Positions 33,923 to 63,289 of a stretch of DNA of 64,000 nucleotides are shown one piece after another; positions within the stretch are counted from its first letter, which is position 1, and the number at the start of each line of letters is the position of its first letter. Position numbers and translations under genes: made by a program. This DNA is from Acidobacteria bacterium Mor1 (GTDB taxonomy: Bacteria; Acidobacteriota; Polarisedimenticolia; Polarisedimenticolales; Polarisedimenticolaceae): NCBI GenBank assembly GCA_001664505.1, contig CP011806.1, forward strand, positions 310,271-374,270, written 5' to 3'. A model generated the notes under the pieces. That model did not search any database and was not told the origin of the DNA. It saw nothing but the letters and a program-made list of their open reading frames with translations.

Positions 33923-33938
33923 TGGCACCGGGGTTGCT
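33923..33938 (+). promoter_or_regulatory. Sigma-54 (-24/-12) promoter of pilA
   Basis: TGGCAC-N5-TTGCT is an exact match to the RpoN consensus with correct spacing. It predicts a start near 33949, 26 bases before the pilA ATG. The gene just upstream encodes PilR, a GAFTGA-bearing activator. The ~85 bases before the promoter would hold PilR sites, but none was clearly defined. Confidence 0.92.
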
Positions 33939-33974: not shown

Positions 33975-34424
33975 ATGAAACGGAATGCGAAAGGTTTCAC
34001 TCTGATCGAACTGCTGATCGTGGTCGCGATTATCGGCATCATCGCCGCCATCGCGATCCCGAACCTTCTGAACGCGATCGACCGTGGTAAGCAGAAGCGC
34101 ACCATGGCCGACCTGCGTTCCATCGGTACCGCTGTCGAATCCTACGCGATCGACAACAACGTGTACCCGGTGGCGACTGCGATGAACACGCTGGAAGGCG
34201 TGATCGAGCCGGTGTACATCCGCACCGCTCCGACCGAAGACGGCTGGGGCAACGCCTTCGTCGTCAGCTCGGCCACCGGTGGCTACACCGTGTGTTCGGG
34301 TGGTAAGGATGGCGGCACGGCCTGCACGGTCGTGAGTGGCGGTGGCGCGACCACCAGCTTCAACGACGCCATCATCTTCATCAACGGTCAGTTCGTGCAG
34401 TGGCCGGAAGGCACCCAGCAGTAA
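33975..34424 (+). CDS. pilA: Type IV major pilin PilA (short, GspG-like)
   Basis: 149 aa. Class III signal MKRNAKG followed by the mature N-terminus FTLIELLIVVAIIGIIAA, with Glu at +5; cleavage is by PilD after Gly7. The body (TMADLRSIGTAVESYAIDNNVYP, then TEDGWGNAFVV) resembles major pseudopilin GspG and the short pilins of Acidobacteriota/Geobacter-type bacteria. Two Cys (TVCSGG ... GTACTV) may form a C-terminal disulfide in a Gly/Ser/Thr-rich region. It is the probable fibre subunit. TGGAGG lies 8 bases upstream of ATG 33975. It is transcribed from the sigma-54 promoter and followed by a GC hairpin. Confidence 0.94.
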   Translation: MKRNAKGFTLIELLIVVAIIGIIAAIAIPNLLNAIDRGKQKRTMADLRSIGTAVESYAIDNNVYPVATAMNTLEGVIEPVYIRTAPTEDGWGNAFVVSSATGGYTVCSGGKDGGTACTVVSGGGATTSFNDAIIFINGQFVQWPEGTQQ

Positions 34425-34457
34425 GCTGAGCCTTACGGTTAGAGTCTGAGTCGACGG

Positions 34458-34476
34458 GGGCCCCAAAGCGGGGCCC
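34458..34476 (+). terminator. Probable terminator after pilA
   Basis: GGGCCCC-aaagc-GGGGCCC is a 7-bp GC stem 33 bases past the stop, followed by TCGTTGCGTT, a poor U tract. It may set the pilA to downstream expression ratio. Confidence 0.5.
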
Positions 34477-34498
34477 TCGTTGCGTTCAGGGGCCCCGC

Positions 34499-34527
34499 TT
34501 CCCATTCGCCCCTCCCGGCGCTATGTT
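34499..34527 (+). promoter_or_regulatory. Candidate promoter for the glycan locus
   Basis: TTCCCA (34499-34504), a 17-bp spacer, then TATGTT (34522-34527). The predicted start (~34534) falls on a GTG in frame with the next gene, so the transcript may be almost leaderless. Confidence 0.4.
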
Positions 34528-34542
34528 GGCCCCGTGTCCGGG

Positions 34543-36258
34543 ATGAACAGTTCGCACGGATCCGTGACGGCGTCCTCGCGCCGTGCCCTGCTGCCTCTGC
34601 CGGCGGTATGCCTGCTCGGATTCCTCCCGCTATTCCCACCCGAGAGCCACGGTCTGGCTGCGCTGCCTGCCGCGATTCTGCTGCTCCTGTTGCTGCTGAT
34701 CCGTCTCGACGACTTGACGTCGGGGCCATGGTTCCCGGTGCTGCTCCTGGGGCTGCTCGGCGCCTGGCCCCTGTCCGCAGCGGCAGCCGCACCCGGGGAG
34801 ACGGTTCCGTTCATCGCCCTGTGGGGCCCCGCGCTGCTGCTGGGAGTCTGTTGCTCCCGCTGGGCCCGCTCGCTCGCGGTCTCGGAGTGGGTGCCCCGGG
34901 TCCTGGCCCTGGCCACCCTGGGAATCGGCGCCTACGCCCTGTGGCAGTCGCTGGGGGGCCTGGCGGCTCAGGCGGAGGCGGCGACCGGAGCCGGGCTGCC
35001 CGACGCGGTGCTGGAACGCTTGCGAGAGGGGAGGGCCTTTGCCCGCTTCTCGACCCCGGCGGCTCTCGGAGGCTTCCTGATTCTGGTGGCGCCCCTGCTG
35101 GCGGTCCATGGGTGGACCTCGAGGGGCGGCGCCCGTGGATTGTCCTTGGCGGCTCTGTCGGCGGCGATCGCGGGGCTGCTCGCCGCGGCATCGGCGACGG
35201 CGGTCGCCGCCCTCGCGGGGGCGGGCGCGCTTTGGGGGCTGCGGCGGGTGACCGACCGCCGGATCCTGGCAGCCGGTGCGGCCGCCGTGGTCCTGGCCCT
35301 GGCGCTGATCGTCGGTCTCCGCGGGGAAGGGCTGTGGAATCCGTCGGCGGAAGGCAGTCCCTGGAAGCTGCGGGCAGGCAACTTCCGCATCGCGACCGAG
35401 ATGATCGCGGACCGCCCCTTGATCGGCGCCGGCCCGGGAGGTTTCGGCGAGGTCTACCCGGGCTACCGCCGCCCCGGCGACAACGAGACCCAGCACGCCC
35501 ACAACCTGCCGCTGGAGCTGTGCGCCGATCTGGGGCTGCCTCTCGGGATCCTGATGAGCGCCGGGTTCTTCGCCTTCTTTCTCGGGCCGCTCTTGCGGCG
35601 AGGCGCGGTCCAGCCCGTGGGTTGGCAGCAGGGGGCCTCGATCGGCCTTGCCGCTTTTGCCCTGCACAATCTCGCGGACTTCACCGCGTTCCTGCCGTCG
35701 ATCCTCTGGTCCGCCGCGATTCTCGCCGGGCTCTGTCGCGTCCGGGGCCCCGCTGGTGACGACGTCGAGGCCCGGCCGGCTGCCGAGGCGGGCCTTTCTC
35801 GAGCGGGCCGATGGGCGTTGGTCGGCGCCGGGCTCCTGGTCGCTCTGGTGTCGGTGGGCGGGGGACTCGCCGCCGAGGCGCGTTGGAAGGCACGGCTGGC
35901 GGCCGGCAGCGGAGATCGCCCCGCGGCATTGATGCGACTGGAGCGTGCGGTTCGGCTGGCGCCCTGGGAGTTCGACGGCTGGATCGAACGGGCCTCGCTG
36001 CTGGCTGCACCGGACGCATCGCAGGACGCGTTGCGGGCGGCGTTGCGCGACATCGAACGGGGCCTACGGGTCAACCCTGCCCGTCCTTCGGGCTACGCGC
36101 TGCGCGCGACCCTGCGCTATCGCCTCGGCGATTTGCCCGGCGCCTACACCGACATGGGCCACGCCGCCGAACTCTATCCGCTCCAGCCGATGTATCGACG
36201 CGACCGGGAACGCCTCGCCGGAGAGGTGTCGCGCATGCTTCCCACAGGCGGGCGCTGA
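34543..36258 (+). CDS. O-antigen ligase/polymerase (Wzy_C) family membrane protein with C-terminal TPR-like domain (first of two)
   Basis: 571 aa. About 10-12 TM helices fill residues ~15-420, with the Wzy_C-type periplasmic loop FRIATEMIADRPLIGAGPGG and HAHNLPLELCADLGLPLG, the motif of O-antigen ligases, Wzy polymerases and PglL/TfpO pilin glycosyltransferases. After a last TM (~425-445), ~120 residues form helical TPR-like repeats. The family transfers lipid-linked glycans to lipid A, another glycan or pilin Ser/Thr. It lies directly after pilA and ends 1 base before its paralogue. ATG 34543 is used; GTG 34534 at the predicted transcription start is an alternative. There is no clear Shine-Dalgarno. 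Confidence 0.8.
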   Translation: MNSSHGSVTASSRRALLPLPAVCLLGFLPLFPPESHGLAALPAAILLLLLLLIRLDDLTSGPWFPVLLLGLLGAWPLSAAAAAPGETVPFIALWGPALLLGVCCSRWARSLAVSEWVPRVLALATLGIGAYALWQSLGGLAAQAEAATGAGLPDAVLERLREGRAFARFSTPAALGGFLILVAPLLAVHGWTSRGGARGLSLAALSAAIAGLLAAASATAVAALAGAGALWGLRRVTDRRILAAGAAAVVLALALIVGLRGEGLWNPSAEGSPWKLRAGNFRIATEMIADRPLIGAGPGGFGEVYPGYRRPGDNETQHAHNLPLELCADLGLPLGILMSAGFFAFFLGPLLRRGAVQPVGWQQGASIGLAAFALHNLADFTAFLPSILWSAAILAGLCRVRGPAGDDVEARPAAEAGLSRAGRWALVGAGLLVALVSVGGGLAAEARWKARLAAGSGDRPAALMRLERAVRLAPWEFDGWIERASLLAAPDASQDALRAALRDIERGLRVNPARPSGYALRATLRYRLGDLPGAYTDMGHAAELYPLQPMYRRDRERLAGEVSRMLPTGGR

Positions 36259-36259
36259 C

Positions 36260-38143
36260 ATGCTCGGGCTGGCATCCGGCGCGTTGCTTCTGGTCGCGCT
36301 ACTGGCAGCGACCCTGGGAGAGGGGGGCGCCGATCCGCACTCGGTACTCTTCTGGCACGGGATCCTGGTAGCCGCGGTCGCCCTGGCGATCCTCGATCGG
36401 CGCAGCGGCCACGGGCTGGACCGGTCGCAGCAGGTGGCGCTCGGTCTGTTCTTCGCCGGGGTCGTCGCCGGTGCCGCTCTGGCGCCCTTTGCCTACGGCG
36501 CCTGGATCATGGCTCTCGAGGTCGCGGCGGCTCTCGCGGTGGTGTGGCTCGCCGCGCGCAGCGGCCCCGGGCTCTTGCCCCGGGCGGTCCCCGTGTTGTT
36601 CGGCGCCGGAGTGCTCCAGGCCTGCTGGGTGCTGACCCAGTTGCTGGCCTTCGGCGAGAAGCGTCCCGCCGGTACCTTCCTCAATACCAATCATCTGGGC
36701 GCCTGGATCGGGGCGACCCTGTTGCTCGGTTGCGGTTTGCTCAGCGGCCGGCGCCGCAAGGATCCGTGGGTGATCGCGCTGTGCGTACCCCTGGCGGCGG
36801 CGCTCCTGGCCACCGGCTCCCGAGGGGCGGTACTCGGGTTCGGCGTCGGACTGTTGCTGTTGATCGCCCGCAGTCTTCCGCGGCTCTCGACGCGTGCCCG
36901 TGTCGCCGTCGCCGCGGTGCTGGTTCTCGGTGCCGGCCTCGCCGGTTGGCGCCAGTATCAGCGCTTCCAGTCGGCGGATCCGTTCAGTTCCCACCGGCTT
37001 CTGATCTGGAAGGCCTCGGTGGCGCCGGCGCTGGAGCATCCGTGGACCGGCGCCGGTCCGCGGCAGTTCCGCACCGAGGCGAGCAACCTGCGGTTCGCCG
37101 ACGGTGACGGACCGCTCCGTTTCGATCGTAGTTTCATCGCGACCCACTCCGATCTGCTACGCCCCTTCGCCGAGCTGGGCTGGCCCACGGCGTTGGCCCT
37201 GGTGGCGGCCGGGCTCCTGGGGCTGCGGCGGTTGCTGCGGGAACGGCGGCGGCTGAGCCGGTTCGAGGGCGCCGCAGTTGCGGCGCTGGCCGCTCTCGGC
37301 ACCCAGGCGCTGGTGGACAATCTCAGCGAACGTCCCGGGGTCTACCTGCTGGCGGCGTTTCTCTGGGGTGTCCTGGGTTCCAGCCGGCGCGACGGGCAGC
37401 CCGCCGGGTCCACGTCGCCCTCGATGTTCCGCGCTGTCGCGCTGGTTCCGCTGCTGTTGGTCTTCGTGGTCGGGGATCTGGCTCCCTGGCAATCCTGGAG
37501 GCTGCAGCAGGAGCAGGCGGCCCTCCCGGCGGCCCAGCGGGATCCGGCGAAGCTCGCCGGTAGCATCGCCCTCAACCCGATCCATCCGGAACCACGGCGC
37601 CTGATGGCCGAACGGCACGCCGCGACGATGCAGGGTGACCCGGCGGCATATGCGGCCGCCCGGCTCCAGGCTGAGCGTGCCGTCGCTCTGCATCCCGCCG
37701 AGTCCCGCTACCGCCTGGCGGCTGCGCGGATCGAGGCTGCCGCCTGCCGCGAGTTGTTCCGCGACGTCGCCACCCGCCGCCGGGCCGCTCAACGCTTCCG
37801 CGAGGCCGCCGAACGCAGCCGCTACGATCCGTTCCCGCTGCTCGAGATGGGGGCGTTCCTGTTGGAGACCGGTGATCCGGCCGGGGCCCGTGCGGCCACC
37901 GAGGATGCTCTCGGACTGGAGCCGGGTGCGGTCAGCCCGCGCCTACTGCTGGCCGACGTGCTGCTGGCCGAGGGGGGCGAGGGTTCCCGGGATCGCGCCC
38001 GCAGGTTGCTCCACGAGGCGCGGGAGCGTGCGGCGGAGACCGAACGCTTCGCCGCGGAGAATCTGTACTCGGAGCGCCTGCTGACCCTGGACCCCCGGGC
38101 GGTGGATCGGATCGAGTCCCGCCTTGCCGAGATCGAACCGTGA
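36260..38143 (+). CDS. O-antigen ligase/polymerase (Wzy_C) family membrane protein with C-terminal TPR-like domain (second of two)
   Basis: 627 aa. About 11 TM helices span residues ~5-440. The periplasmic region includes NTNHLGAWIGATLLLG and HRLLIWKASVAPALEHPWTGAGPRQF-type Wzy_C sequence. The conserved His-Asn of the ligase motif appears here as FIATHSDLLRPFAELGWP, a diverged form. The C-terminal ~180 residues are Ala/Arg-rich TPR-like helices (ERAVALHPAESRYRLAAARI). It is a paralogue of the preceding gene, possibly a ligase/polymerase division of labour. ATG 36260 follows the upstream TGA by one base; its 3' end overlaps the next glycosyltransferase by 4 bases. Confidence 0.78.
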   Translation: MLGLASGALLLVALLAATLGEGGADPHSVLFWHGILVAAVALAILDRRSGHGLDRSQQVALGLFFAGVVAGAALAPFAYGAWIMALEVAAALAVVWLAARSGPGLLPRAVPVLFGAGVLQACWVLTQLLAFGEKRPAGTFLNTNHLGAWIGATLLLGCGLLSGRRRKDPWVIALCVPLAAALLATGSRGAVLGFGVGLLLLIARSLPRLSTRARVAVAAVLVLGAGLAGWRQYQRFQSADPFSSHRLLIWKASVAPALEHPWTGAGPRQFRTEASNLRFADGDGPLRFDRSFIATHSDLLRPFAELGWPTALALVAAGLLGLRRLLRERRRLSRFEGAAVAALAALGTQALVDNLSERPGVYLLAAFLWGVLGSSRRDGQPAGSTSPSMFRAVALVPLLLVFVVGDLAPWQSWRLQQEQAALPAAQRDPAKLAGSIALNPIHPEPRRLMAERHAATMQGDPAAYAAARLQAERAVALHPAESRYRLAAARIEAAACRELFRDVATRRRAAQRFREAAERSRYDPFPLLEMGAFLLETGDPAGARAATEDALGLEPGAVSPRLLLADVLLAEGGEGSRDRARRLLHEARERAAETERFAAENLYSERLLTLDPRAVDRIESRLAEIEP

Positions 38144-39171
38144 GCTCGCCGGTGCTGGCCCTGCCCGTCGGAGACGAACGGGGAGCGAGCACCCGCTACC
38201 GGGTGTTGGCCCATCGCCGCATGCTCGCCGCCGAAGGGCTGGCCACCGAGGTGCTGTTTCCGCTCAAGGCGGCCGCCTCCCGCTCCAGGTTCAAACGGGT
38301 ACGCGACCTGATGCGCGACGTACGTGCCGCCCGCCGGGCCCGTCTTCTGTTCGTGCAGCGCAAGACCTATCCGGCTCCTTTCGATCGGCTGCTCGCCGCA
38401 TCCGCCGCGCCGTTGGTCTACGACGTCGATGACGCGATCTACCTGCCGCCTCCCGGGCGGGACCTTCCCGCGGGGGCCGCACGTCGCTACCGGGAGCAGT
38501 TCCAGGCGATCGCCGGTCGCGCGGATCTGGTGATCTGCGGCAACGAGGTGCTCGCCGCCGAGGTGCCCCACGAACGGGTCGCGGTCTTGCCCACCGCCGT
38601 CGACACCGACCGCTTCCGGCCCTCACCCCGTGAGGCCGGCCCTCCGCGGCTCGGCTGGGTCGGCCACTCGGACAATCTTCCTTTCCTCGAGCGGCTGGCG
38701 GAGCCCCTCCGGGAATTGACCCGGCGGCATCCGGGATTGGAGTTGATCGTGGTCGCCGATCGGGAGCCGCAGCTTCCCGGGGTGAACATCCGTTTCCGCC
38801 CCTGGTCCCTGGCCGGCGAGGTCAAGGTTTTCCAGGGCATCGACGCCGGGCTGATGCCCCTGGACGACACCCCGTGGACCCGGGCCAAGTGCGCCTTCAA
38901 GGCGATCCAGTACATGGCCCTGGGTATTCCCGCGGTGGCCTCTCCCGTGGGCATGAACCACGAGGTGATCCGCAGCGGGGAGAACGGCTACCTTCCGGAG
39001 ACCGACACCGAGTGGGTCGAATGCGTCGACGGCCTGCTCGGCGACAGGCAAAAGGCCGGGGCCCTGGGAGCCGCTGCCCGCGAGACCGTCGAGGCCCGCT
39101 ACTCGCTGCGGGCCGTTACCCCCCGGCTGGCGAAACTCCTGCGGGAGCTCCTGGAGCGATCGAGTCGATGA
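38140..39171 (+). CDS. Glycosyltransferase (GT4-type, GT-B fold)
   Basis: 343 aa. The N-terminal domain has GASTRYRVLAHRRMLAAEG and LVYDVDDAIYLPP. The C-terminal nucleotide-sugar domain has RLGWVGHSDNLPFLERL and the acceptor/donor loop WTRAKCAFKAIQYMALGIPAVASPVG, which replaces the classic EX7E, as in a well-known subgroup of polysaccharide glycosyltransferases. It is cytosolic and adds sugars to the lipid-linked precursor; donor unknown. GTG 38140 overlaps the upstream stop by 4 bases, and the next gene overlaps its own stop. Confidence 0.82.
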   Translation: MSSPVLALPVGDERGASTRYRVLAHRRMLAAEGLATEVLFPLKAAASRSRFKRVRDLMRDVRAARRARLLFVQRKTYPAPFDRLLAASAAPLVYDVDDAIYLPPPGRDLPAGAARRYREQFQAIAGRADLVICGNEVLAAEVPHERVAVLPTAVDTDRFRPSPREAGPPRLGWVGHSDNLPFLERLAEPLRELTRRHPGLELIVVADREPQLPGVNIRFRPWSLAGEVKVFQGIDAGLMPLDDTPWTRAKCAFKAIQYMALGIPAVASPVGMNHEVIRSGENGYLPETDTEWVECVDGLLGDRQKAGALGAAARETVEARYSLRAVTPRLAKLLRELLERSSR

Positions 39172-40694
39172 GTCCGGTGGATCCCCAGCAGCATCTCGAT
39201 CCGGTCTCCGACCGTTTGCGGGAGCGTTCGGTCAGCGGCGCCGCGATGTCGCTTGTCGGGCAGGGGATTCGCTTCGTTCTGCGCATGGCCTCGATCTACG
39301 TGTTGGCGCGGCTGCTGACCCCCGAGGACTACGGGCTGGTCGGCATGGTCGTGGCGGTTACCGGGTTGATCCTGCTGTTCAAGGACCTCGGCCTGTCGAT
39401 GGCCACGGTGCAGCGGGCGGAGGTGACCCACGAACAGATCAGTACGCTGTTCTGGACCAACGTCGCGCTCTCGACGGGGATCATGCTGGTCACGGCGGCG
39501 ATCGCTCCGCTGGTCGGTTGGTTCTATCGCGAGCCGCGGGTGGTGGGCATCACCCTTGCGGTCTCGGTGGGCGTGCTGCTCAGCGGGCTGGCGGTTCAGC
39601 ACCAGGCGGTGCTGCGCCGGCGCATGCGCTTCACCACCCTGGCCGCCATCGACGTGGCCTCCGACGCGCTGGGGATGATCGTCGCCATCGCCGCGGCGCA
39701 CTACTACGACGCCGGCTACTGGGCGCTGGTGCTCCAGCCTCTTACTGCGGCGGCGTTGAACCTGGTGTCGGTCTGGATCGCTTGCCCATGGCGTCCCGGC
39801 CGGCCCGCCCGCGGGACCGGGGTGCGCCCGATGCTGCGCTACGGCGGCAACCTGACCTTCTTCCGTTTCGCCAACTATCTGGCGCGCAGTTTCGACAACG
39901 TGCTGGTCGGCCGGGTCTGGGGGCCGGAATCCCTCGGCCTCTACGCCCGGGCCTACTCGCTGCTGTTGCTGCCGATATCTCAGATCAATGCGCCGATCGC
40001 CGGGGTCGCCGTGCCGACCCTGAGCCGGCTGCAGAACGAACCCGAGCGTTACCGCCGCTACTATCTGAAGTCGGTCTCGCTGATCGCCCTTCTGACCATG
40101 CCGCTGACGGCGCTGCTGGCCAGCCTGTCCGAGGAGACGATTCTGCTGGTGCTGGGGCCCCAGTGGACCCCTGCCGCCCAGATCTTCCTGGTGTTCTCCA
40201 TCGCCGCTTTCGCCGAGCCGGTGGTCTCGACGACCGGGTGGGTCTACCTCTCCCTCGGCCAGACCGGGCGCCTGGCCAGGTGGGGGCTCCTGTTCGCGAC
40301 CCTGCGGGTCCTGTTCTTTGCGGCCGGGCTGCCCTGGGGGGCGTTCGGCGTGGCGGCCGGGTTCACGCTAGGCTTCTGGGTACTGACCCCCTTCGTCCTG
40401 TGGGCCGCCTACCGGGTGTCCCCGATCCGGGTCCGTGATGTGCTCGGCGCCGCCGTTCGACCGGCGGTCGTCGGGTTGGTGGTCGCCGCTGCGGCCCATC
40501 TGGCCCGGGGGTGGCTTGCCGGATCCGGAGCGGGGACCATCATTGCTGGGGGGACCCTGGCCGCGGCGGCCGGGGTGGCCCTCCTGACCCTGGTCTGGCC
40601 CGCTCTGCGGCGGGACATCCTGGGAGTTGCCGCGCTGAGGCGCGATCTGCGCGTCGGGGATGGAGCCTCGACGACGGAGGATGCCGGGACTTGA
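39168..40694 (+). CDS. Lipopolysaccharide/polysaccharide flippase (Wzx/WzxC, MOP superfamily)
   Basis: 508 aa with ~12-14 TM helices starting near residue 28. Family segments: GQGIRFVLRMASIYVLARLLTPEDYGLVGM, GVLLSGLAVQHQAVLRRRMRF and YARSFDNVLVGRVWGPESLGLYARAY-type sequence typical of WzxC. It moves the undecaprenyl-linked oligosaccharide across the inner membrane, as needed for either Wzy polymerisation or en bloc pilin glycosylation. ATG 39168 overlaps the glycosyltransferase stop by 4 bases; the sulfotransferase TTG overlaps its stop by 4. Confidence 0.87.
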   Translation: MSPVDPQQHLDPVSDRLRERSVSGAAMSLVGQGIRFVLRMASIYVLARLLTPEDYGLVGMVVAVTGLILLFKDLGLSMATVQRAEVTHEQISTLFWTNVALSTGIMLVTAAIAPLVGWFYREPRVVGITLAVSVGVLLSGLAVQHQAVLRRRMRFTTLAAIDVASDALGMIVAIAAAHYYDAGYWALVLQPLTAAALNLVSVWIACPWRPGRPARGTGVRPMLRYGGNLTFFRFANYLARSFDNVLVGRVWGPESLGLYARAYSLLLLPISQINAPIAGVAVPTLSRLQNEPERYRRYYLKSVSLIALLTMPLTALLASLSEETILLVLGPQWTPAAQIFLVFSIAAFAEPVVSTTGWVYLSLGQTGRLARWGLLFATLRVLFFAAGLPWGAFGVAAGFTLGFWVLTPFVLWAAYRVSPIRVRDVLGAAVRPAVVGLVVAAAAHLARGWLAGSGAGTIIAGGTLAAAAGVALLTLVWPALRRDILGVAALRRDLRVGDGASTTEDAGT

Positions 40695-41464
40695 GTGTGC
40701 TGATCATCGGAGGCATGCATCGCTCGGGCACGTCGATGACTGCCGGATGGCTCAAGCGTTGCGGTCTGTCCCTGGGACAGGACCTGATCCCCGGAGACTG
40801 GACCAACCCGCGGGGGCACTTCGAGGACCGGGAGGTCTCCCACTTCCAGCGGGCCATCCTCTCTGCCGCCGGCGTCGACCACTATCTGACCGGTTCCGAT
40901 CCGATTCCGGTGGCACCGGAGTTCCATCAGCAGGGGCGCGAGTTGATCACCCGCCGCAGCGGCCACGCCCAGTGGGGCTTCAAGGATCCCCGCAGCGCGT
41001 TGCTCCTCGACTTCTGGCGTGAGCTGTTGCCCGAGGCGCGTTACCTGTTCGTCTTCCGCCACTACGGCCTGGTCGTGCAGTCGTTGCTCCGGCGCCAGCG
41101 CACGCCGAAGGCCCACGTGCTCCAGGTCTCCCGCTTTGCCAAGGTCTGGAAGCGCTACAACGAAGATCTGCTGCGGTTCCACGCGGCTCACCCCGAAGAC
41201 TGCCTGATGGTCGAGGTGTTCGATCTGCTCGGTTGTTCCCTGAACGTGATCGAGCATGCCAATGAGCGCTGGGGTTTCCAGTTGCGGCCGCTGGACATCA
41301 AGGACGTCGCCGAGGACCGGCTGTTGACCCGTGACGGCCCGCTCTGGTTCGACGGGCTCTGCCGCATGACCACCCGGGGACTGGACCCGGTTTACGAACG
41401 ACTGCAGGAAGCCAGCCGAGAGTCGCTTCAACGAATCGGGCACGCCGCCCGGCTCGCCGGCTGA
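40691..41464 (+). CDS. Sulfotransferase family protein
   Basis: 257 aa. The N-terminal 5'-phosphosulfate loop (LIIGGMHRSGTSMTAGWL, HRSGTS at residues 10-15) and the later WGFKDPRSALLLDFW with RYLFVFRHYG (3'-phosphate-binding type) identify a PAPS-dependent sulfotransferase. It would add sulfate to a sugar or, less likely, to a protein or lipid. The start is TTG 40691 (GGAGG 10 bases upstream); GTG 40697 is the alternative. It is co-transcribed with the flippase. Its place in the cluster suggests the glycan is sulfated. Confidence 0.82.
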   Translation: MSVLIIGGMHRSGTSMTAGWLKRCGLSLGQDLIPGDWTNPRGHFEDREVSHFQRAILSAAGVDHYLTGSDPIPVAPEFHQQGRELITRRSGHAQWGFKDPRSALLLDFWRELLPEARYLFVFRHYGLVVQSLLRRQRTPKAHVLQVSRFAKVWKRYNEDLLRFHAAHPEDCLMVEVFDLLGCSLNVIEHANERWGFQLRPLDIKDVAEDRLLTRDGPLWFDGLCRMTTRGLDPVYERLQEASRESLQRIGHAARLAG

Positions 41465-41468
41465 CCCG

Positions 41469-41482
41469 GCTCGGTACCGAGC
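41469..41482. repeat. 14-bp perfect palindrome before the 2OG-oxygenase gene
   Basis: GCTCGGTACCGAGC lies between the sulfotransferase stop and the GAGGAG ribosome site. As RNA it can form a 5-bp hairpin with a GTAC loop. Confidence 0.6.
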
Positions 41483-41493
41483 GAGGAGACGAC

Positions 41494-42357
41494 ATGAGTC
41501 TCGCGGATAGCGAAAGGGTCCCCGTGGCCGACGACCGGTTCACCTTTGCCGAGGACCTGCCCGAGCAGGCCCGGCCGCTGGCTTCCCGTTACGCGGCTGC
41601 CGATCCCTTTCCCCACATCGCCGTCGATGACTTCCTGCCCGAAGGGGTCGCCCGGATGCTCCACGACGCCTTCCCGGATCCGGAGTCGATCGCCTGGCAG
41701 GCGGATGCGACCGGACCCCAGGCGGGCAAGCTCGGGACCCGGGACGCCCGCAACATGGCCGGCGCGTCGCCTTTCGTTCAGCACATGCTGATGGTCTTCA
41801 ACTCCTCGCCCTTCGTCCGCTACCTCGAAACCCTGACCGGCATCGATGGACTGATTCCGGACCCGCACTTTCACGGTGGGGGACTGCATCAGATTCCTCG
41901 GGGCGGACGGCTCTCGATTCACGCCGACTTCAGCCGTCACAAGAGCCTCGGGTTGGAGCGGCGGGTCAACGCCTTGCTCTATCTCAATCCCGGTTGGGAT
42001 GCGGCCTGGGGCGGCCAGCTCGAACTGTGGGACCGTGAGATGACCCGCTGCGTCGAGCGTATCGATCCCTGGTTCAACCGGTTGGCGGTGTTCAGCACCA
42101 CGGCGACGTCGTACCACGGACATCCCGACCCGTTGGCCTGTCCCGAAGGGATCACCCGCAAATCGATGGCGTTCTACTACTACACCCAGAGCCGGCCGGG
42201 AGAGGATGCGCCCCACGGCACCCTCTGGCAGCGCCGGCCGGGCACCGAGGACCCGGTCGCGGCGGCGCCTGCCGCACCCCGTGGCAGCGGCCTCAGGCGC
42301 CTGGCCTCCCGCTGGGTGCCGCCGGCCATCGCCGACCGGCTGCGAGGGCGTCGCTGA
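41494..42357 (+). CDS. 2-oxoglutarate/Fe(II)-dependent oxygenase (prolyl-4-hydroxylase-like)
   Basis: 287 aa. The iron-binding facial triad is visible: H143 and D145 in LSIHADFS, and H208 or H210 in SYHGHP. R222 in EGITRKSMAFYYYT is the 2-oxoglutarate carboxylate binder. The fold is a cupin-type jelly roll (NALLYLNPGWDAAWGGQLEL). It hydroxylates a substrate with O2 and 2OG; relatives in glycan clusters are thought to modify sugars or lipids. The last ~60 residues are basic and Pro/Ala-rich. It sits between the sulfotransferase and a glycosyltransferase, with GAGGAG upstream of ATG 41494. Confidence 0.85.
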   Translation: MSLADSERVPVADDRFTFAEDLPEQARPLASRYAAADPFPHIAVDDFLPEGVARMLHDAFPDPESIAWQADATGPQAGKLGTRDARNMAGASPFVQHMLMVFNSSPFVRYLETLTGIDGLIPDPHFHGGGLHQIPRGGRLSIHADFSRHKSLGLERRVNALLYLNPGWDAAWGGQLELWDREMTRCVERIDPWFNRLAVFSTTATSYHGHPDPLACPEGITRKSMAFYYYTQSRPGEDAPHGTLWQRRPGTEDPVAAAPAAPRGSGLRRLASRWVPPAIADRLRGRR

Positions 42358-42383
42358 GCCGTGGAACGGGCCTTTTCCCAAGG

Positions 42384-42389
42384 TAGAAT
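42384..42389 (+). promoter_or_regulatory. Possible -10 (TAGAAT) inside the glycan locus
   Basis: TAGAAT lies in the 89-base gap after the oxygenase gene, with only a weak -35 (GTGGAA, 42361-42366, 17-bp spacer). It may start a second transcript for the downstream glycosyltransferases. Confidence 0.35.
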
Positions 42390-42446
42390 TCCCCGTCTGG
42401 ACACTCGATGAGTCGGGTCCGTACCAATCTGGGGGTAGCGCCGGAC

Positions 42447-43616
42447 ATGAGCGAGCCGATGACGATCGTGATGCTTTCGCATCTGGCGTCGCCCGTGGGT
42501 CCGACCGGGGCCGAGCACAGTCTCGCCCTGCTTGCCGATGGCCTGCATCGCCGCGGTCACCGGGTCGGCGTGGTGCACCCCGGACCGTGGGGACTCGAAG
42601 AGTGGCTCTATCAACGGGGCGTCGAGACCGCCGAGATTCGAACCCGTACCCACTGGACCGTCCAGGCCGATCGGCAGGGTGCGGTGGCGACCGCCGCGCG
42701 GCGGCTGCGCTACAGCTTGCCCGACCCCGAGCGGAGCCGGCTGGCGACCGCCATCGCCGAGTACCGGCCCGACGTGGTGCACGTCAACTGCCTGCCGCAC
42801 CTGGCCGGCGCCGCCGCCGCCGCGGAACAGGGGGTGCCGGTGGTCTGGCACCTGCGGGAAATCCTGCCGCCGGGGCCCCGTCGCCGCTGGTGGGCGCGGA
42901 AGCTCCAGCGCTACGCCAGCCGGATCGTGGCGGTCAGCGAGGCGGTGGCCTCCTGGGTTCGGGAGGAAGGGCTGGGCGATCGCGTTCAGGTCGTGCACAA
43001 CGGGGTCGATACCGGCCAGGCCCGCTCGGTCGAGGCGTCGCGCAAGGCGCTGGGATTGCCACCCGCAGACTGCATTGTCGGCCTGTTGGGCCAGCTGCTC
43101 CCCCACAAGGGGCCGCGGGAATTCGTCCGGGCCGGCCGCCTGGCGCTGGAAAAGGAAGTCGACGCGCGCTTCATCATGGCGGGCAAGGGGCCCTCGCACT
43201 TCATCGAGCGTGTACGCAAGGACATCGAGTCCCATCCGAGTTCGGCGCGGTTCCACCTGTTGCCGCCGCAGCCCACCGGGGCGGCCCTGACCGCCGCCTG
43301 CGACGTGGTCTGCCTGGCCAGCACGAGCCACGACCCACTGCCCCGCACGGTGCTCGAGGCCATGGCCGCGGGCAAACCGGTGGCGGCCTTCCGCTCCGGC
43401 GGCACGCCGGAAATGGTGGTCCAGGGCGAGACCGGGCTGCTGGTGGAGATCGGCGACGTCAAGGCGCTGGCTCGGGCCCTGGTGACCCTTGCGGGCAACC
43501 CGAAGTTGCGGGAACGCATGGGCGCGGCGGCCATGATCCGGGCGCGGGAGCAGTTCTCGCTGACGGCCCACGTTCACCGGATGGAGACAGTGCTCCGCTC
43601 CACGGCAGGGTCATGA
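42447..43616 (+). CDS. Glycosyltransferase family 4
   Basis: 389 aa, GT-B fold. N-terminal LSHLASPVGPTGAEHSLALL (acceptor domain); the C-terminal GT4 domain has VGLLGQLLPHKGPREFVRA, IMAGKGPSHFIERV and the donor loop HDPLPRTVLEAMAAGKPVAAF, where the first acidic residue of EX7E is Asp and the second Glu is kept. It builds the lipid-linked glycan on the cytosolic side. ATG 42447 is used (GGGGG ~11 bases upstream); ATG 42408 is possible but close to the predicted -10. It overlaps the next gene by 4 bases. Confidence 0.85.
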   Translation: MSEPMTIVMLSHLASPVGPTGAEHSLALLADGLHRRGHRVGVVHPGPWGLEEWLYQRGVETAEIRTRTHWTVQADRQGAVATAARRLRYSLPDPERSRLATAIAEYRPDVVHVNCLPHLAGAAAAAEQGVPVVWHLREILPPGPRRRWWARKLQRYASRIVAVSEAVASWVREEGLGDRVQVVHNGVDTGQARSVEASRKALGLPPADCIVGLLGQLLPHKGPREFVRAGRLALEKEVDARFIMAGKGPSHFIERVRKDIESHPSSARFHLLPPQPTGAALTAACDVVCLASTSHDPLPRTVLEAMAAGKPVAAFRSGGTPEMVVQGETGLLVEIGDVKALARALVTLAGNPKLRERMGAAAMIRAREQFSLTAHVHRMETVLRSTAGS

Positions 43617-44566
43617 GCACGGCCCCGGTCGCCGTCGTCATCGTCAGCTGGAACTCCGAGCGCTTTCTCGCCGACTGCCTGGACAGCCTGGCCGATCTGG
43701 CCCGCCCGGTGCAGGAAATCCTCGTGGTCGACAACGCCTCGACCGACGGTTCGGTGGCGATGGCCACGGGCCGCCCGGGTGTGCGGGTGCTGAAGCTGGA
43801 AGACAACCTGGGTTTCTGCGAGGCGAACAACCGGGGCATCGCCGAGACCTCGGCTCCCTTCGTACTGTTGCTCAATCCGGACACCCGGGTCGACCGCGAA
43901 TTCGTCGAGGGGTTGTTGCCGGCCTTCGAGGACCCGGAGACCGGCATCGCCTGCGGCAAGCTGCTGCGCTTCGACGGGCAGACCCTGGACTCGGCGGGAC
44001 AGCAGTTGGCCCGCTCCCGGAAACCCCTGGACCGGGGCTACGGCAAACCGGACCGGGGTCAATACGACCGCGATGAAGAGGTCTTCGGAGCCTGCGGCGC
44101 CGCCGCTCTTTACCGCCGCCGCATGCTCGACGATGTTTCGGCCGATTGCGGCGGGGTGTTCGACCCCCGCTTCTTCGCCTTCTACGAGGATCTGGACCTG
44201 GCCTGGCGGGCCCGTAGACGGGGCTGGAAGGCTCGCTACCGGCATGGCGCCGTGGCCTACCACCACCGGGGTGGGAGCGCCGAACGGGGCAACCTGGTGC
44301 GCAGGGTGGCGCTCCTGGGGCGCAGCGCCGAGGTGCGCTTCCACGTGGCCAAGAATCGCTACCTTACGATCTTGCGCAACGATTCTGTTGCGGGGTATCT
44401 GGCGAACCTTCCGTTCATCCTGGCCCGGGACCTGGCGATGCTCGGCCTGATCGCCGTCACCTCTCCAGGTGTCCTGCTGCGCTTGTGGCGGGAGCGCGGC
44501 CTTTTCGGCGACACCCTGGCGCTCCGCAGACTGGACGGCGGCGCATCGCGGCATCACGTTTCCTGA
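43613..44566 (+). CDS. Glycosyltransferase family 2 (rhamnosyltransferase-like)
   Basis: 317 aa, GT-A fold. VAVVIVSWNSERFLADCLDSL, VVDNASTDGSV and the metal-binding region LLLNPDTRVD are classic GT2 motifs. FYEDLDLAWRARRRGW supplies the catalytic ED. This pattern matches dTDP-rhamnosyltransferase-type enzymes (RfbF/WbbL group), although the donor is not certain. A hydrophobic helix near the C-terminus (~260-285) suggests membrane association. ATG 43613 overlaps the upstream stop by 4 bases. Confidence 0.87.
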   Translation: MSTAPVAVVIVSWNSERFLADCLDSLADLARPVQEILVVDNASTDGSVAMATGRPGVRVLKLEDNLGFCEANNRGIAETSAPFVLLLNPDTRVDREFVEGLLPAFEDPETGIACGKLLRFDGQTLDSAGQQLARSRKPLDRGYGKPDRGQYDRDEEVFGACGAAALYRRRMLDDVSADCGGVFDPRFFAFYEDLDLAWRARRRGWKARYRHGAVAYHHRGGSAERGNLVRRVALLGRSAEVRFHVAKNRYLTILRNDSVAGYLANLPFILARDLAMLGLIAVTSPGVLLRLWRERGLFGDTLALRRLDGGASRHHVS

Positions 44567-44582
44567 GGGAACGTGTAACGAG

Positions 44583-45605
44583 ATGGTGATCGATGAGAAC
44601 TGGCGATGGTTGATCCACGGACTCAGCTTCCTGCTGGCTCTGGGCTTCGCGCTGTGGCTGACGCCACGGCTGCGCGAGGCCGCGCTGCGCTTCGGCATCA
44701 CCGACAAACCCGACGGCAAGCTCAAGACCCATCGCGAACCGATTCCCTACCTCGGAGGGCTTGCGATCTATCTGGCCTTCCTGCTCTCCCTGGCGTTGAC
44801 CTTCGACTTCAGTCGCGAGGTGCTCGGGTTGTTGCTGGCCGGGTCGATCGTCGTGATCCTCGGCCTGCTCGACGACCTGGGGCAGCTCGGTCCCTGGACC
44901 AAACTGATCGGTCAATCGGTGGCGGTGCTGGTGCTGATCAAGTCCGGCATCTACATCAAGCTGGTCTTCCTGCCGGAGTGGTTGGCTCTGGGGTTGTCGG
45001 TGCTGTGGCTCCTCGGGGTGACCAACGCCTTCAACCTGATCGACATCATGGACGGTCTCTCGGCGGGCACCGCCGCGGTCGCCGCCCTGGTGTTGTTCGT
45101 GGTTGCGGAGCTCGCGGGCAACGGAGCCAGTGCGACCATCGCCCTGGCCCTCGCCGGCAGCTGTCTCGGTTTCCTGCGCTACAACTTTCAGCCGGCCCGC
45201 ATCTACATGGGGGATACCGGCAGTCTGTTCATCGGCCTGATGCTCGGAGCGTTGGCGATGGACAACCCCTACACCCGGCACAACGATCTCGGCGCGCTCT
45301 GTCCGGCGCTGATCCTCGGCGTGCCGCTGTTCGACATGCTGTTCGTGATGTACATCCGCTGGCGGCGTGGGCTTCCGGTCATGCTCGGGAGTCCGGATCA
45401 TGTCGCCCTGCGGCTGCGCAAGTGGCGGCTGAGCACCCGGGGAACGGTGGTGACCTCCTACGTGGTCACGGCCCTGCTCGGGATCGCGGCCATCGGCATG
45501 AGCCTGCTTCCCGACATCGTATGGGCCGCCTGGATGCTGGCCGGACTGGCGCTCTCCGCCGTGGCCTGTGGCGCGCTGCTCAAGCGTATCGATATGTCCT
45601 TGTGA
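44583..45605 (+). CDS. Undecaprenyl-phosphate glycosyl-1-phosphate transferase (WecA/MraY family)
   Basis: 340 aa, ~10-11 TM helices. Cytosolic-loop motifs are intact: LGLLDDLGQLG (Mg-binding DD), NAFNLIDIMDGLSAG, YMGDTGSLFIG, and a modified HIHH-type loop (GSPDHVALRLRK). It starts glycan assembly by moving a sugar-1-phosphate, usually GlcNAc-1-P or a relative, onto undecaprenyl phosphate. The locus can therefore make its own lipid-linked precursor. ATG 44583 follows the GT2 gene by 16 bases; the next gene starts 10 bases after it. Confidence 0.9.
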   Translation: MVIDENWRWLIHGLSFLLALGFALWLTPRLREAALRFGITDKPDGKLKTHREPIPYLGGLAIYLAFLLSLALTFDFSREVLGLLLAGSIVVILGLLDDLGQLGPWTKLIGQSVAVLVLIKSGIYIKLVFLPEWLALGLSVLWLLGVTNAFNLIDIMDGLSAGTAAVAALVLFVVAELAGNGASATIALALAGSCLGFLRYNFQPARIYMGDTGSLFIGLMLGALAMDNPYTRHNDLGALCPALILGVPLFDMLFVMYIRWRRGLPVMLGSPDHVALRLRKWRLSTRGTVVTSYVVTALLGIAAIGMSLLPDIVWAAWMLAGLALSAVACGALLKRIDMSL

Positions 45606-45615
45606 GGAACGATTC

Positions 45616-46944
45616 ATGGTCGTGATCATCGGAGGCGGTCTGGCCGGCATGTCCACCGCCTACCATCTGGGAAACACTCCGTGCACCGTGCTCGAGGCGG
45701 GTCCGGTCGCCGGGGGATTGTGCGGCTCCCGCACGATCGACGGGTTCGTCTTCGACTACACCGGGCACCTGCTGCATCTGCGCGACCCGCGTATCGTGGC
45801 GCTGGTCGACGAGTGGCTGCCCGGCGTGTTCTCCACCATCGAGCGCAAGGCCTACATCCACTCTCACGACGTACGGCTGCCGTTCCCGTTCCAGGCCAAC
45901 CTGCACGGCCTGCCTCCTGAGGTGGTTTCCGACTGCCTGATGGGTTTCATCCGCAGCCTCGACGTCCCTGTTCCGGATTCTCCGGAGGTGGATTTCGAAA
46001 CCTGGTCCCTGGCGGTGTTCGGCCGGGGGATCAGCGACGCGTTCATGCTGCCCTACAACGAGAAACTGTTCCGCCGAGCGCCGGCGGAGATGACCGCCGA
46101 CTGGGTCGCGTGGGCCGTGCCCAAGCCGAATCTCGAGCAGGTCGTCCAGGGGGCGCTGGGTGTGGTCAATCGCGGGCTGGGCTACAACTCGACCTTCCGC
46201 TACCCGACCCGGGGCGGGATCGAGGTCCTGCCCAACGTGCTGGCCGACCGGGTGCGGGACCGCATCCGGCTCAACGCCGAGGTTCAGCGGGTCGACATGG
46301 ATCGCCAGGTGGTGACCCTGGCCGACGGCGAGCAGATCGCCTACGACGAACTGGTCGTGACCACACCGCTGCCCCGGTTCCTCAACATGCTGGAAGGGCC
46401 CTCGTCGGAGCTCTCTTCCCGGGCCGACAAACTGGATTGGTCGGTGGTCGGTTGCCTGAACCTGGGTATCGACCGGCCTGACGTGGGCGGCGACGCCCAC
46501 TGGATCTACTTCCCCGACGATGATTCCCGCTACTACCGTGCCGGTTTCCCGACCAACTTCTCCGAGGGCGTGGCCCCCGAGGGAACCTCCTCGCTATATG
46601 TCGAGTTCGGCCTGCGGCGGGACGAGGTCATCGACGAAGAGGCGGTCTGCCGCGAGGCCATCGCCGATCTGACCCGGCAGGGCATTCTGCGGCCCGACGA
46701 CCGGATCCTGGTGCAGGACTTCATTCGCATCGATCCGGGTTACGTGATCTTCGACCGGGACCGCCAGGCGGTGATGAACGAGGTGGTGCCCGCGCTGGCG
46801 AACCGGGGTGTTCATCTGATCGGCCGCTACGGCGCCTGGACCTACTCCTACATGGAGCGGGCGCTCCTTGACGGCCTCGAGTTGGCCGAGCGACTGAGCG
46901 GCTGCAAGGCGGCGCAGGGAAGACAGGGGGCGCTGGGCGTCTGA
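45616..46944 (+). CDS. FAD-dependent amine-oxidase-type oxidoreductase (protoporphyrinogen oxidase/UGM-like)
   Basis: 442 aa. The N-terminal Rossmann motif IIGGGLAGMSTAYHL (GGGLAG at 6-11) is followed by LEAGPVAGGLCGS; a C-terminal FAD element lies at GVHLIGRYGAWTYSYMERALLDG. The sequence is of the NAD(P)-binding/amine oxidoreductase group often found in polysaccharide clusters and annotated as protoporphyrinogen oxidase or UDP-galactopyranose-mutase-like. No haem genes are nearby, so a sugar-nucleotide or lipid-glycan substrate is more likely. GAGGAA lies 7 bases before ATG 45616. Confidence 0.78.
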   Translation: MVVIIGGGLAGMSTAYHLGNTPCTVLEAGPVAGGLCGSRTIDGFVFDYTGHLLHLRDPRIVALVDEWLPGVFSTIERKAYIHSHDVRLPFPFQANLHGLPPEVVSDCLMGFIRSLDVPVPDSPEVDFETWSLAVFGRGISDAFMLPYNEKLFRRAPAEMTADWVAWAVPKPNLEQVVQGALGVVNRGLGYNSTFRYPTRGGIEVLPNVLADRVRDRIRLNAEVQRVDMDRQVVTLADGEQIAYDELVVTTPLPRFLNMLEGPSSELSSRADKLDWSVVGCLNLGIDRPDVGGDAHWIYFPDDDSRYYRAGFPTNFSEGVAPEGTSSLYVEFGLRRDEVIDEEAVCREAIADLTRQGILRPDDRILVQDFIRIDPGYVIFDRDRQAVMNEVVPALANRGVHLIGRYGAWTYSYMERALLDGLELAERLSGCKAAQGRQGALGV

Positions 46945-46963
46945 GCCCGGAAAGCGACGAGCC

Positions 46964-48187
46964 ATGAAGGTTCTTCAGTTCATCACGCGGCTCGACCTGG
47001 GTGGAGCCCAGGAGATCTGCCTGGATCTTTGCGAGCGGTTGATCCGCCGGGGGGACGAAGTACACCTCCTGACCGGTACCGGCGGCGAGTTGATCGACGA
47101 CGCCCGCCGGATGCCCGGCCTGACCCTTCACGCCTGGGACGACTGGCACCACGCCATCAAGCCGCTGAACGATCTGCGTTGTGCCGCTCGGCTGGCGGGC
47201 ATGCTGCGCAAGGAGTCCTTCGACCTCTTGCACACCCATTGTTCCAAGGCGGGGCTCGTCGGCCGCCTGGCCGCGTTCGCCTCCGGCGCTCCCGACCGGG
47301 TCGTGCATCACGTCCACGGTTGGTCGTTCAACCGCACCCAGACCCCGCTGCGCCACGGCCTCTATGCGGGGCTGGAACGGTTGGCCGCCCGGCGCGACTT
47401 CGTCCTGCTTTCCTGCTGTCACGCGACCAGCGAGCAGGGAGCGAAGCTGGGTATCGGCAGGGATGAGGATCGCCGGGTCGTGGTCAACGCCATCGATCGG
47501 CGGGAGAACCTGCGGCGCCGAGATCGCCGGGCGATTCGCCGACGGCTCGGCATCGGCCGCCGGGAGTGCCTGTTCCTGCAGCTGGGCAACCTCAAGCCCC
47601 AGAAGGACCCGCTGACCTTTGCCCGGGCTGCCTGCATCGCCGGCAAGGAAGCCCATCGCGCGGTGTTCCGTATCGCGGGAGACGGTCCGTTGCGCCGGCA
47701 GACCCTGGACATCGCCCGGTCCGGCGGCCTGGGAGATCGTTTTGCGGTGATGGGTTGGCGGACCGACGTGGCCGACCTGCTCGCCGCCGCCGACGTGATG
47801 GTGTTGGCCAGCCGCTTCGAGGGCCTGCCGATGGCCCTGCTGCGGGGCATGGCTGCGGAGCTTCCGGTGATCGCCACCGCGGTGGACGGCACCCCCGAGG
47901 CGGTGGCCGACGGACACAACGGCATCTTGGTCCCCGCGGAAGATCCCGAGGCGACCGCGGCCGCCATGGTGCGGTTGGCCCTCGATCCGCGGGAGCGCCG
48001 GCGCATGGGGCAGGCGGGGCGCCGCCGTTCGGAACTCTTCACCGCCGACCGGGCGGCTGCCGAGACCCTCGCGGTCTACGACAGCGCTCCGTTGCGGGGG
48101 CGGGGCGCCGACGCCCGGCGCATCGTGGCCGCCCGGGACCGGGCACGCCGACCGACGGTGACCGCCGGGGGAGGCATTCACTCATGA
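46964..48187 (+). CDS. Glycosyltransferase family 4 with altered EX7E motif
   Basis: 407 aa, GT-B fold. QFITRLDLGGAQEICLDLC and THCSKAGLVGRLAAF in the acceptor domain; LQLGNLKPQKDPLTF and FRIAGDGPLRRQT in the donor domain. The donor loop reads RFEGLPMALLRGMAAELPVIAT: the second Glu of EX7E is Arg, which is unusual and may lower activity or alter donor geometry. The C-terminal ~40 residues are Arg-rich. It is the last glycan gene; its stop overlaps the ABC ATPase start by 4 bases, so glycan and pilus genes share a transcript. Confidence 0.82.
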   Translation: MKVLQFITRLDLGGAQEICLDLCERLIRRGDEVHLLTGTGGELIDDARRMPGLTLHAWDDWHHAIKPLNDLRCAARLAGMLRKESFDLLHTHCSKAGLVGRLAAFASGAPDRVVHHVHGWSFNRTQTPLRHGLYAGLERLAARRDFVLLSCCHATSEQGAKLGIGRDEDRRVVVNAIDRRENLRRRDRRAIRRRLGIGRRECLFLQLGNLKPQKDPLTFARAACIAGKEAHRAVFRIAGDGPLRRQTLDIARSGGLGDRFAVMGWRTDVADLLAAADVMVLASRFEGLPMALLRGMAAELPVIATAVDGTPEAVADGHNGILVPAEDPEATAAAMVRLALDPRERRRMGQAGRRRSELFTADRAAAETLAVYDSAPLRGRGADARRIVAARDRARRPTVTAGGGIHS

Positions 48188-49164
48188 GCGTGATGTCCCC
48201 GCGACCCGAGAGCTCCGGGAGCCGGGCCGCAGACCCCGGCTCGGCCGCGATCCGCATTCGCGGGCTGGCCAAGGCGTTCCCGGGACATCTGGGAATCGGA
48301 CGCAAGGTGGCGCTCCCCGGGCTCGATCTCGACGTGCCCTCAGGGGAGATCTTCGGCTTGCTGGGCCCCAACGGCGCGGGCAAGACCACGACCCTCAAAC
48401 TGCTGCTGGGGCTCTTGCGCCCCGATGCCGGCGAGATCGAGGTGTTCGGCCTGCCGCATACCGCGGCCGAGGCCCGGGCACGGCTCGGGTTCCTCCCGGA
48501 GAACCCGTACTTCTACGACTATCTGACCGCCGAGGAGTTCCTCGACTTCTACGGGCGGCTCCACGGCCTCGACGCCTCCGAGCGAGGTGACCGGGTGCAG
48601 CGAGCGTTGCGGCGGGTCGGAATGGAAGGCCGGGGCAAGACACCGCTGCGCCAGTGTTCCAAGGGCATGGTGCAGCGAGTCGGTCTGGCTCAGGCGATTC
48701 AACACGACCCGCAGCTGGTGATCCTCGACGAGCCGATGTCCGGCCTCGACCCGATCGGACGGCGGCAGGTGCGCGACCTGATCCAGGAGTTGAAGGCCGA
48801 GGGCAAGACGGTCTTCTTCTCGAGCCACATCCTGCAGGACGCCGAACTGCTCTGCGATCGCATCGCGATCCTGGAGAAGGGGAGCCTGCGCTTCAGCGGC
48901 GCCCTGCGCGAGTTGCTTCCGAGTCAGATCCGTGGCTTCGAGGTGACGCTGCGGGGCGCCAACCTGGAGAACCTGCCCGCCGAACATCTGTGGGCCGGCG
49001 AGGAGGAGACCACCCTGCTGGTCGCCGACGCGGTGGAGCTGGAACGCCTGCTCGCCGAGTGCCGCAGCCGGGAGTTGCTGGTGGTCTCGATCTGGCAGCG
49101 GCGGGAAAGTCTCGAAGACCTGTTCCTGCGGGAACTCGGCCAGGAGCCGGGAGGGGAGTCTTGA
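48184..49164 (+). CDS. ABC transporter ATP-binding protein (PilH-like by context)
   Basis: 326 aa, a DrrA/CcmA-type single ATPase. Walker A GPNGAGKT (61-68), Q-loop near LPENPYF, signature CSKGMVQR (158-165), Walker B LVILDEP (178-184), H-loop SSHIL, and a C-terminal regulatory extension (~240-326). With the next gene it forms an ABC-2 exporter. In Myxococcus an ABC ATPase, a permease and a third protein (pilH, pilI, pilG) lie between pilA and pilD and are needed for pilus assembly; the same composition is seen here. A polysaccharide-export role is less likely, as Wzx/Wzy genes are present. Confidence 0.88.
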   Translation: MSVMSPRPESSGSRAADPGSAAIRIRGLAKAFPGHLGIGRKVALPGLDLDVPSGEIFGLLGPNGAGKTTTLKLLLGLLRPDAGEIEVFGLPHTAAEARARLGFLPENPYFYDYLTAEEFLDFYGRLHGLDASERGDRVQRALRRVGMEGRGKTPLRQCSKGMVQRVGLAQAIQHDPQLVILDEPMSGLDPIGRRQVRDLIQELKAEGKTVFFSSHILQDAELLCDRIAILEKGSLRFSGALRELLPSQIRGFEVTLRGANLENLPAEHLWAGEEETTLLVADAVELERLLAECRSRELLVVSIWQRRESLEDLFLRELGQEPGGES

Positions 49165-51609: not shown

Positions 51610-51707
51610 CCGGATCGTTCGCCGGCGGACGGCGCCGTCGCGGTTGTCACGCATCCAGCGGTTCCCCTGATCGAAAGTGCTCCGGTTCGTCGCCGTGTCT
51701 TGCCGGC

Positions 51708-62816: not shown

Positions 62817-62926
62817 AGGCCGGCGGGGTGGCTGCGACGGTAAGTGACTGTTCGAGAGTGATTTATCGGCGCCTGGGGGAGGCCGCACGGGTCTCCCCGA
62901 GACGCTGCAGGAGGCGTACGGAAGAC

Positions 62927-63013: not shown

Positions 63014-63051
63014 TCCGTCGAGACGAGACGCAAGCGAATCGAAAACTGTGA

Positions 63052-63213: not shown

Positions 63214-63289
<76 letters not shown>

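Follow-up and report, generated by a model that had tools for sequence, protein, structure and literature searches.

The locus described here lies in a 64,000-nucleotide stretch of the genome of Acidobacteria bacterium Mor1, referred to as the window in the following. The genome is a single contig of 5.985 Mb and belongs to the class Ca. Polarisedimenticolia of the Acidobacteriota. In the window, eleven glycan genes fill the interval between the type IV pilin gene pilA (33975-34424) and a group of ATP-binding cassette (ABC) transporter genes followed by pilD. Their order is wzyA, wzyB, a type 4 glycosyltransferase (GT4), Wzx, a sulfotransferase, a 2-oxoglutarate (2OG) oxygenase, a second GT4, a type 2 glycosyltransferase (GT2), a WecA-like enzyme, an FAD protein and a third GT4. 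A preliminary description of this DNA had counted ten glycan genes; each of the gene identities it gave between pilA and pilD is backed by Pfam, as are those of pilB, pilS and pilR upstream of pilA. The features are as follows.

33923..33937, + strand: sigma-54 (-24/-12) promoter match TGGCACCGGGGTTGC upstream of pilA (exact pattern match)
33975..34424, + strand: pilA, encoding the major type IV pilin, GspG-like (N_methyl in Pfam at E=3.9e-10; T2SSG also matched)
34450..34484, + strand: GC-rich hairpin after pilA, terminator- or attenuator-like (-27.9 kcal/mol, z=-5.0)
34543..36258, + strand: wzyA, WaaL-fold Wzy_C enzyme with C-terminal tetratricopeptide repeats (TPR) (Wzy_C E=7.7e-13)
36260..38143, + strand: wzyB, second WaaL-fold Wzy_C enzyme with C-terminal TPR (Wzy_C E=4.5e-18)
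38140..39171, + strand: GT4-type glycosyltransferase, cassette (Glyco_trans_1_4 E=1.9e-9)
39168..40694, + strand: Wzx-type flippase, cassette (Polysacc_synt_3 E=6.2e-89)
40691..41464, + strand: sulfotransferase, cassette (Sulfotransfer_3 E=2.1e-7)
41494..42357, + strand: 2OG-Fe(II) oxygenase, cassette (2OG-FeII_Oxy_3 E=6.7e-17)
42408..43616, + strand: GT4 glycosyltransferase, cassette (Glycos_transf_1 E=1.2e-26)
43613..44566, + strand: GT2 glycosyltransferase (Glycos_transf_2 E=3.3e-26; high-scoring homologues in six other loci of the class)
44583..45605, + strand: wecA-like polyprenyl-phosphate sugar-1-phosphate transferase, conserved core (Glycos_transf_4, WecA/MraY-like, E=1.4e-34; in 20 other loci of the class)
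45616..46944, + strand: UDP-galactopyranose mutase (UGM) homologue, conserved core (Amino_oxidase/NAD_binding_8; 4dsg E=1.5e-79)
46964..48187, + strand: gt4c, GT4 glycosyltransferase, conserved in most loci and, in other classes, located between UGM and pilD (Glyco_trans_1_4 E=4.6e-32)
48184..49164, + strand: ABC transporter ATPase, PilH-like by position (ABC_tran E=2.3e-28)
49161..49952, + strand: ABC-2 permease, PilI-like by position (ABC2_membrane_2 E=1.4e-10)
49952..50800, + strand: third ABC/pilus-operon protein, PilG-like by position (no Pfam match; homologue in 52 of 60 relatives)
50797..51609, + strand: pilD, prepilin peptidase (A24_N_bact E=2.8e-35, and Peptidase_A24)

In the run from wzyA to pilD, neighbouring genes either share a few nucleotides or are separated by gaps of at most about 50 nucleotides. 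The earlier wording of tightly spaced genes is appropriate for this run and does not extend to pilA and wzyA, which are 118 nucleotides apart. The overlap of the last GT4 gene with the ABC ATPase/pilD operon was observed as described and amounts to 4 nucleotides.

The conservation of this layout was examined in the class. Regions from 20 class genomes were labelled with profiles built from the window proteins, and 41 class genomes were scanned, with a match above 170 bits counted as a strong wzyA and adjacency to pilA read by hand from two tables. The usual layout begins with pilB-T-C-S-R, pilA, often a second pilin, wzyA, wzyB and a variable cassette, and continues with wecA, UGM, usually gt4c, the ABC ATPase, the permease, the third conserved protein and pilD. 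A strong wzyA was found in 39 of the 41 genomes. For 32 of these 39, the contig also carries a pilA homologue upstream of wzyA, at a distance of at most about 2.5 kb. In four, wzyA begins at most about 450 bases from a contig end, where adjacency to pilA is not assessable, and in two fragmented assemblies the contig with wzyA carries no pilA; the one clear exception (G007) is considered below. One genome rated 100% complete (G018) is jointly devoid of pilA, the third ABC-operon gene, a strong wzyA and UGM. The synteny between pilA and pilD proposed as a check on the coupling of pilus and glycan genes therefore holds class-wide and partly beyond, and the glycan genes are not an insertion peculiar to the window genome. 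Mirror-tree correlations (r) were 0.93 for wzyA/wzyB, 0.94 for wzyA/UGM and about 0 with pilA, the pilA set being short and mixed with paralogues, and were not used as evidence.

The FAD protein, which had been described as a generic oxidoreductase, is UGM-like over its full length. Its profile from 19 genomes matches 4dsg over 424 profile positions with an E-value of 1.5e-79, far above the amine oxidases. This entry, which we take to be the UGM of Trypanosoma cruzi, represents the eukaryote-type enzymes; the match is full-length, but the window protein is bacterial and encoded in a pilus-linked glycan locus. The homologue probably makes a furanose sugar donor such as UDP-Galf. Matches above 250 bits were found in 35 of the 41 class genomes. 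Scanning named genomes with the UGM profile yielded 80 loci, of which 52 have at least 6 kb of downstream sequence, the class loci being included in these counts. pilD lies downstream of UGM in 31 of the 52 loci, and in 27 of these 31 wecA is also directly upstream. The wecA-UGM-pilD loci include Thermoanaerobaculia, Holophagae and one Terriglobia bin, all within the Acidobacteriota, and bins labelled Deltaproteobacteria, where the taxon labels of bins are the submitters' own. One such 'Deltaproteobacterium' locus (L166) combines genes for a sigma-54 regulator, a pilin and a Wzy_C/TPR protein with ABC genes, wecA, UGM, gt4c and pilD. At the stringency used, UGM homologues were found in 32 of 149 genomes of a phylum sample, 15 of them in the class, so that the core is not universal in Acidobacteriota. 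In another 'Deltaproteobacterium' locus (L187:835-2784), a PMT_2 (mannosyltransferase-like) protein with C-terminal TPR is encoded several kb upstream of UGM-gt4c-pilD, and is perhaps an alternative transferase that replaces Wzy_C.

Within the class, the fixed core wzyA-wzyB ... wecA-UGM-GT4 encloses a cassette that differs between genomes, as judged from about 20 of them. It ranges from 0 to about 14 kb and is absent in G001 and G005. No match to the Wzx, sulfotransferase and 2OG oxygenase genes of the window was found in the other class loci compared. The cassettes of relatives were characterized by Pfam tallies only, from crude calling of open reading frames (ORFs) that yields some spurious ORFs; they hold glycosyltransferases, flippases, methyltransferases, Asn_synthase, heparinase II/III-like and GFO_IDH_MocA/ADH proteins. 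Asn_synthase-like and heparinase II/III-like proteins recur in the cassettes of L098, L104-L105, L106, L108 and others, which is unusual beside pilA.

O and K loci typically have fixed flanks that enclose a variable cassette, and WecA, Wzx, two Wzy_C proteins and glycosyltransferases form the gene set of an O-antigen locus. On these grounds, the glycan genes could be the main lipopolysaccharide O-antigen or capsule locus, with their position in the pilus operon being historical and without a functional link. We consider this improbable. The class-wide retention at pilA, the joint absence in G018 and the occurrence of wecA-UGM-gt4c with pilD in other classes and phyla are hard to credit to chance, and the genome has other polysaccharide loci.

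The two Wzy_C enzymes were analyzed by structure prediction and profile searches. AlphaFold models had a mean pLDDT of 89.4 for WzyA and 91.1 for WzyB and matched the ligase WaaL (7tpg) with Z=20.9 over 354 residues at an rmsd of 4.3 and Z=25.1 over 358 residues at an rmsd of 4.5, respectively. With Foldseek, TPR proteins occupied the hit list for WzyA and WaaL came first only after a second aligner was applied; for WzyB, WaaL came first both times. Profiles of the N-terminal parts matched only WaaL in the PDB. The invariant residues are R164, R260, R277, E315 and H320 in WzyA and R188, R235, R246, H296 and E305 in WzyB, and the invariant histidine of each aligns to the conserved histidine region of WaaL. 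Helix counts in the models, hydrophobicity and flanking positive charges indicate 13 transmembrane (TM) helices for both proteins, which places the TPR domains, by prediction, in the periplasm. No NCBIfam match was found for either protein. In loci of the f5 type (L115, L121, L122, L140, L173), a single ORF of 1244-1770 amino acids comprises both WzyA and WzyB, which are encoded by two genes in other families. This fusion suggests that the two enzymes work together.

The product of the locus might be a polymeric surface polysaccharide, either an exopolysaccharide (EPS) or O-antigen-like. It would be co-encoded with pili that bind it or respond to it, in the manner of Myxococcus social motility, and would not be attached to pilin; one Wzy_C protein would be the polymerase and the other a WaaL-type ligase to lipid or another acceptor. 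We regard this explanation as a real possibility, although short of even odds. It draws on WaaL as the sole significant non-TPR solved relative of both enzymes, on the Asn_synthase, heparinase-like and bi-domain oxidoreductase proteins in the cassettes of relatives, on the position of the EPS exporter gene xapD (GSU1501) few loci from pilA (GSU1496) in Geobacter sulfurreducens (PMC4974642) and on the loss of EPS in pil mutants of M. xanthus (PMC3724824). However, no match to an outer membrane polysaccharide export (OPX; Poly_export) gene was found at the pilus locus in the 41 genomes, although the locus could rely on exporters encoded elsewhere in the genome, and no Wzz-type chain-length protein was found in the window. 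OPX, Wzz and Wzy_C occur at several further loci of the window genome, and the remaining Wzy_C proteins of this genome are distant from the pilus locus, whereas those described here are placed specifically at pilA. In addition, two genomes of family f11 (G017 and G020) retain the locus and have no OPX gene detected anywhere, neither genome being closed.

The reading favoured here is that the locus encodes a lipid-linked glycan pathway serving specifically the type IV pilus and that the WaaL-fold enzymes act on a pilus component, to which we assign a probability of about 0.5. It is preferred because of the fixed place at pilA, the joint absence in G018, the finding of neither OPX nor, in the window, Wzz with the glycan genes and the precedent of pilin-specific O-oligosaccharyltransferases, which are frequently encoded beside their target (PMC12645811). 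The fixed core around a variable cassette, the WzyA-WzyB fusion in f5, the match to the WaaL fold with invariant His and Arg, the predicted 13 TM helices and periplasmic C-terminal domain resembling PglS, and synteny of the L166 type argue in the same direction. The locus suggests that the class decorates its pili or a pilus-linked surface with strain-specific sugars. We infer the enzyme chemistry, the identity of the sugars and, above all, the acceptor, and the resulting scheme is conditional throughout. The WecA-like enzyme (44583) would begin the glycan on polyprenyl phosphate, with the UGM homologue (45616) probably providing a furanose donor such as UDP-Galf, and gt4c and the GT2 would assemble the inner part. 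The cassette, here comprising two GT4s, the sulfotransferase, the 2OG oxygenase and Wzx, would add or modify strain-specific sugars and flip the lipid-linked glycan. WzyA and WzyB may then act in the periplasm, sequentially or as a pair, possibly one as polymerase and the other as ligase, and the glycan would be transferred to a component of the type IV pilus, most likely PilA or a minor pilin. The putatively periplasmic TPR domains may dock the acceptor protein.

Several observations weigh against a glycan attached to the pilus. A hairpin 3' of pilA, mostly with a T tract, was found in 14 of 14 genomes checked and separates pilA from wzyA. Of these 14 genomes, 13 show a sigma-54 match, located 51-68 nucleotides before the pilA match; no sigma-70 site came up in plain promoter scans. 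In the window, the hairpin lies within the 118-nucleotide spacer and was missed by the terminator scan but recognised by reading and folding the sequence; folding of the whole spacer gave no significance, which is confined to the short hairpin. Since pilA has its own sigma-54 match and a 3' hairpin, one transcript with the glycan genes would need read-through. The single transcript with pilus genes claimed in the preliminary description is therefore doubtful where it includes pilA, and it is plausible for the glycan genes with ABC/pilD, given the 4-nucleotide overlap of gt4c and the ABC gene.

The end of the pilin also counts against such a glycan. PilA is 58-73% identical to 12 aligned class pilins and ends in GTQQ in the window, thus in Gln-Gln rather than Ser/Thr. 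No C-terminal Ser/Thr conserved across the class was found; a C-terminal Thr occurs in eight class genomes (families f6, f7, f8 and f12), and Gln-Gln in the order of the window genome. This difference may track a changed modification site. Moreover, neither PglL_A nor Wzy_C_2 was reported in WzyA or WzyB by Pfam at E<=1e-3, and together with the end of PilA this does not bear out any membership in PglL/TfpO. Protein ligases, WaaL and Wzy polymerases are inseparable by sequence features, and the match to WaaL cannot split polymerase from ligase activity because the PDB entry itself names the molecule 'polymerase/ligase'. The minimal loci of G001 and G005 have just wzyA, wzyB, wecA and UGM, with no flippase and no glycosyltransferase at the site, so that the 'complete pathway' originally described is not the conserved unit. 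The Asn_synthase, heparinase II/III-like and GFO_IDH_MocA/ADH proteins of the cassettes fit a long acidic polysaccharide. Finally, wzyAB is truly away from pilA in G007. In this genome (L090, L091), pilA is followed directly by wecA-UGM, a natural separation that lends itself to testing which enzyme is needed by the pilus.

Downstream of pilD, frames at 51702-54816 resemble a run of minor pilin genes, one with an N-terminal GFTLVESLVALSLMAG motif. Four clustered tRNA genes (Thr, Tyr, Gly, Thr) lie at 62741-63289, downstream of the genes for the ribosomal proteins L13 and S2.

If the favoured reading is true, pilus glycosylation, or a pilus-anchored polysaccharide, would belong to the pilus operon as an old and permanent constituent in a large uncultured soil and sediment group and not merely an occasional add-on of pathogens. 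It would offer a defined enzyme set of a TPR-bearing WaaL-fold pair, UGM and a WecA-like starter, and cassette exchange could diversify pilus surfaces with the pilin conserved. If the polysaccharide is instead not attached to pilin, a link between pili and exopolysaccharide at the level of the operon would be of value as well, since its genetic basis is still poorly understood outside Myxococcus. More tentatively, and with the odds rather against it, the locus may represent a new pilus-dedicated glycosylation system, in which a TPR-bearing WaaL-fold ligase pair, fused in some lineages, and a WecA-UGM-GT4 core are passed on along with the pilus operon across Acidobacteriota and in some 'Deltaproteobacteria', and a serotype-like exchangeable cassette varies the pilus surface between lineages. 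The open-access literature searched on pili and glycosylation in Acidobacteriota and Polarisedimenticola contained nothing relevant and no report of this arrangement. Its parts are already known in kind, namely WaaL-fold ligases, Wzx/WecA pathways and ligases encoded beside pilins.

Among known systems, the pilus part of the locus resembles the Myxococcus xanthus cluster, where the order is presumably pilA-pilGHI-pilD, likewise with an ABC ATPase, a permease and a third protein between pilA and pilD; no glycan genes are described in the Myxococcus cluster. One study treats PilGHI as ABC proteins in Myxococcus and mentions that two Desulfuromonadales carry 12 additional genes, an insert of 14 kb, between pilD and pilH (PMC6060248). 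The pilA-xap region of Geobacter sulfurreducens shares a polysaccharide gene near pilA but is described as an ATP-dependent EPS exporter system, and it is likened here by description only. With WaaL (7tpg/7tpj), WzyA and WzyB have a common fold over about 355 residues and a conserved catalytic-type histidine in a large loop; they differ by an identity of 15-17%, an extra TM helix, the TPR domain and the location of their genes at pilA. The closest parallels are TfpO/PilO, TfpM and PglS, in which the gene of a WaaL-like membrane enzyme adjoins a pilin gene. PglS is reported to have 13 TM helices, a periplasmic C-terminal domain and a His/Arg set equivalent to that of WzyA and WzyB (PMC12800693), for which the same number of helices and a periplasmic C-terminal domain are predicted. 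PglL_A and Wzy_C_2 serve as the domain criterion for PglL and PglS (PMC12645811). In contrast to TfpO and TfpM, the window PilA has no C-terminal Ser/Thr, and in contrast to all of these systems, the locus encodes two paired TPR-bearing Wzy_C enzymes without either domain and keeps a whole variable glycan gene set at the pilin gene.

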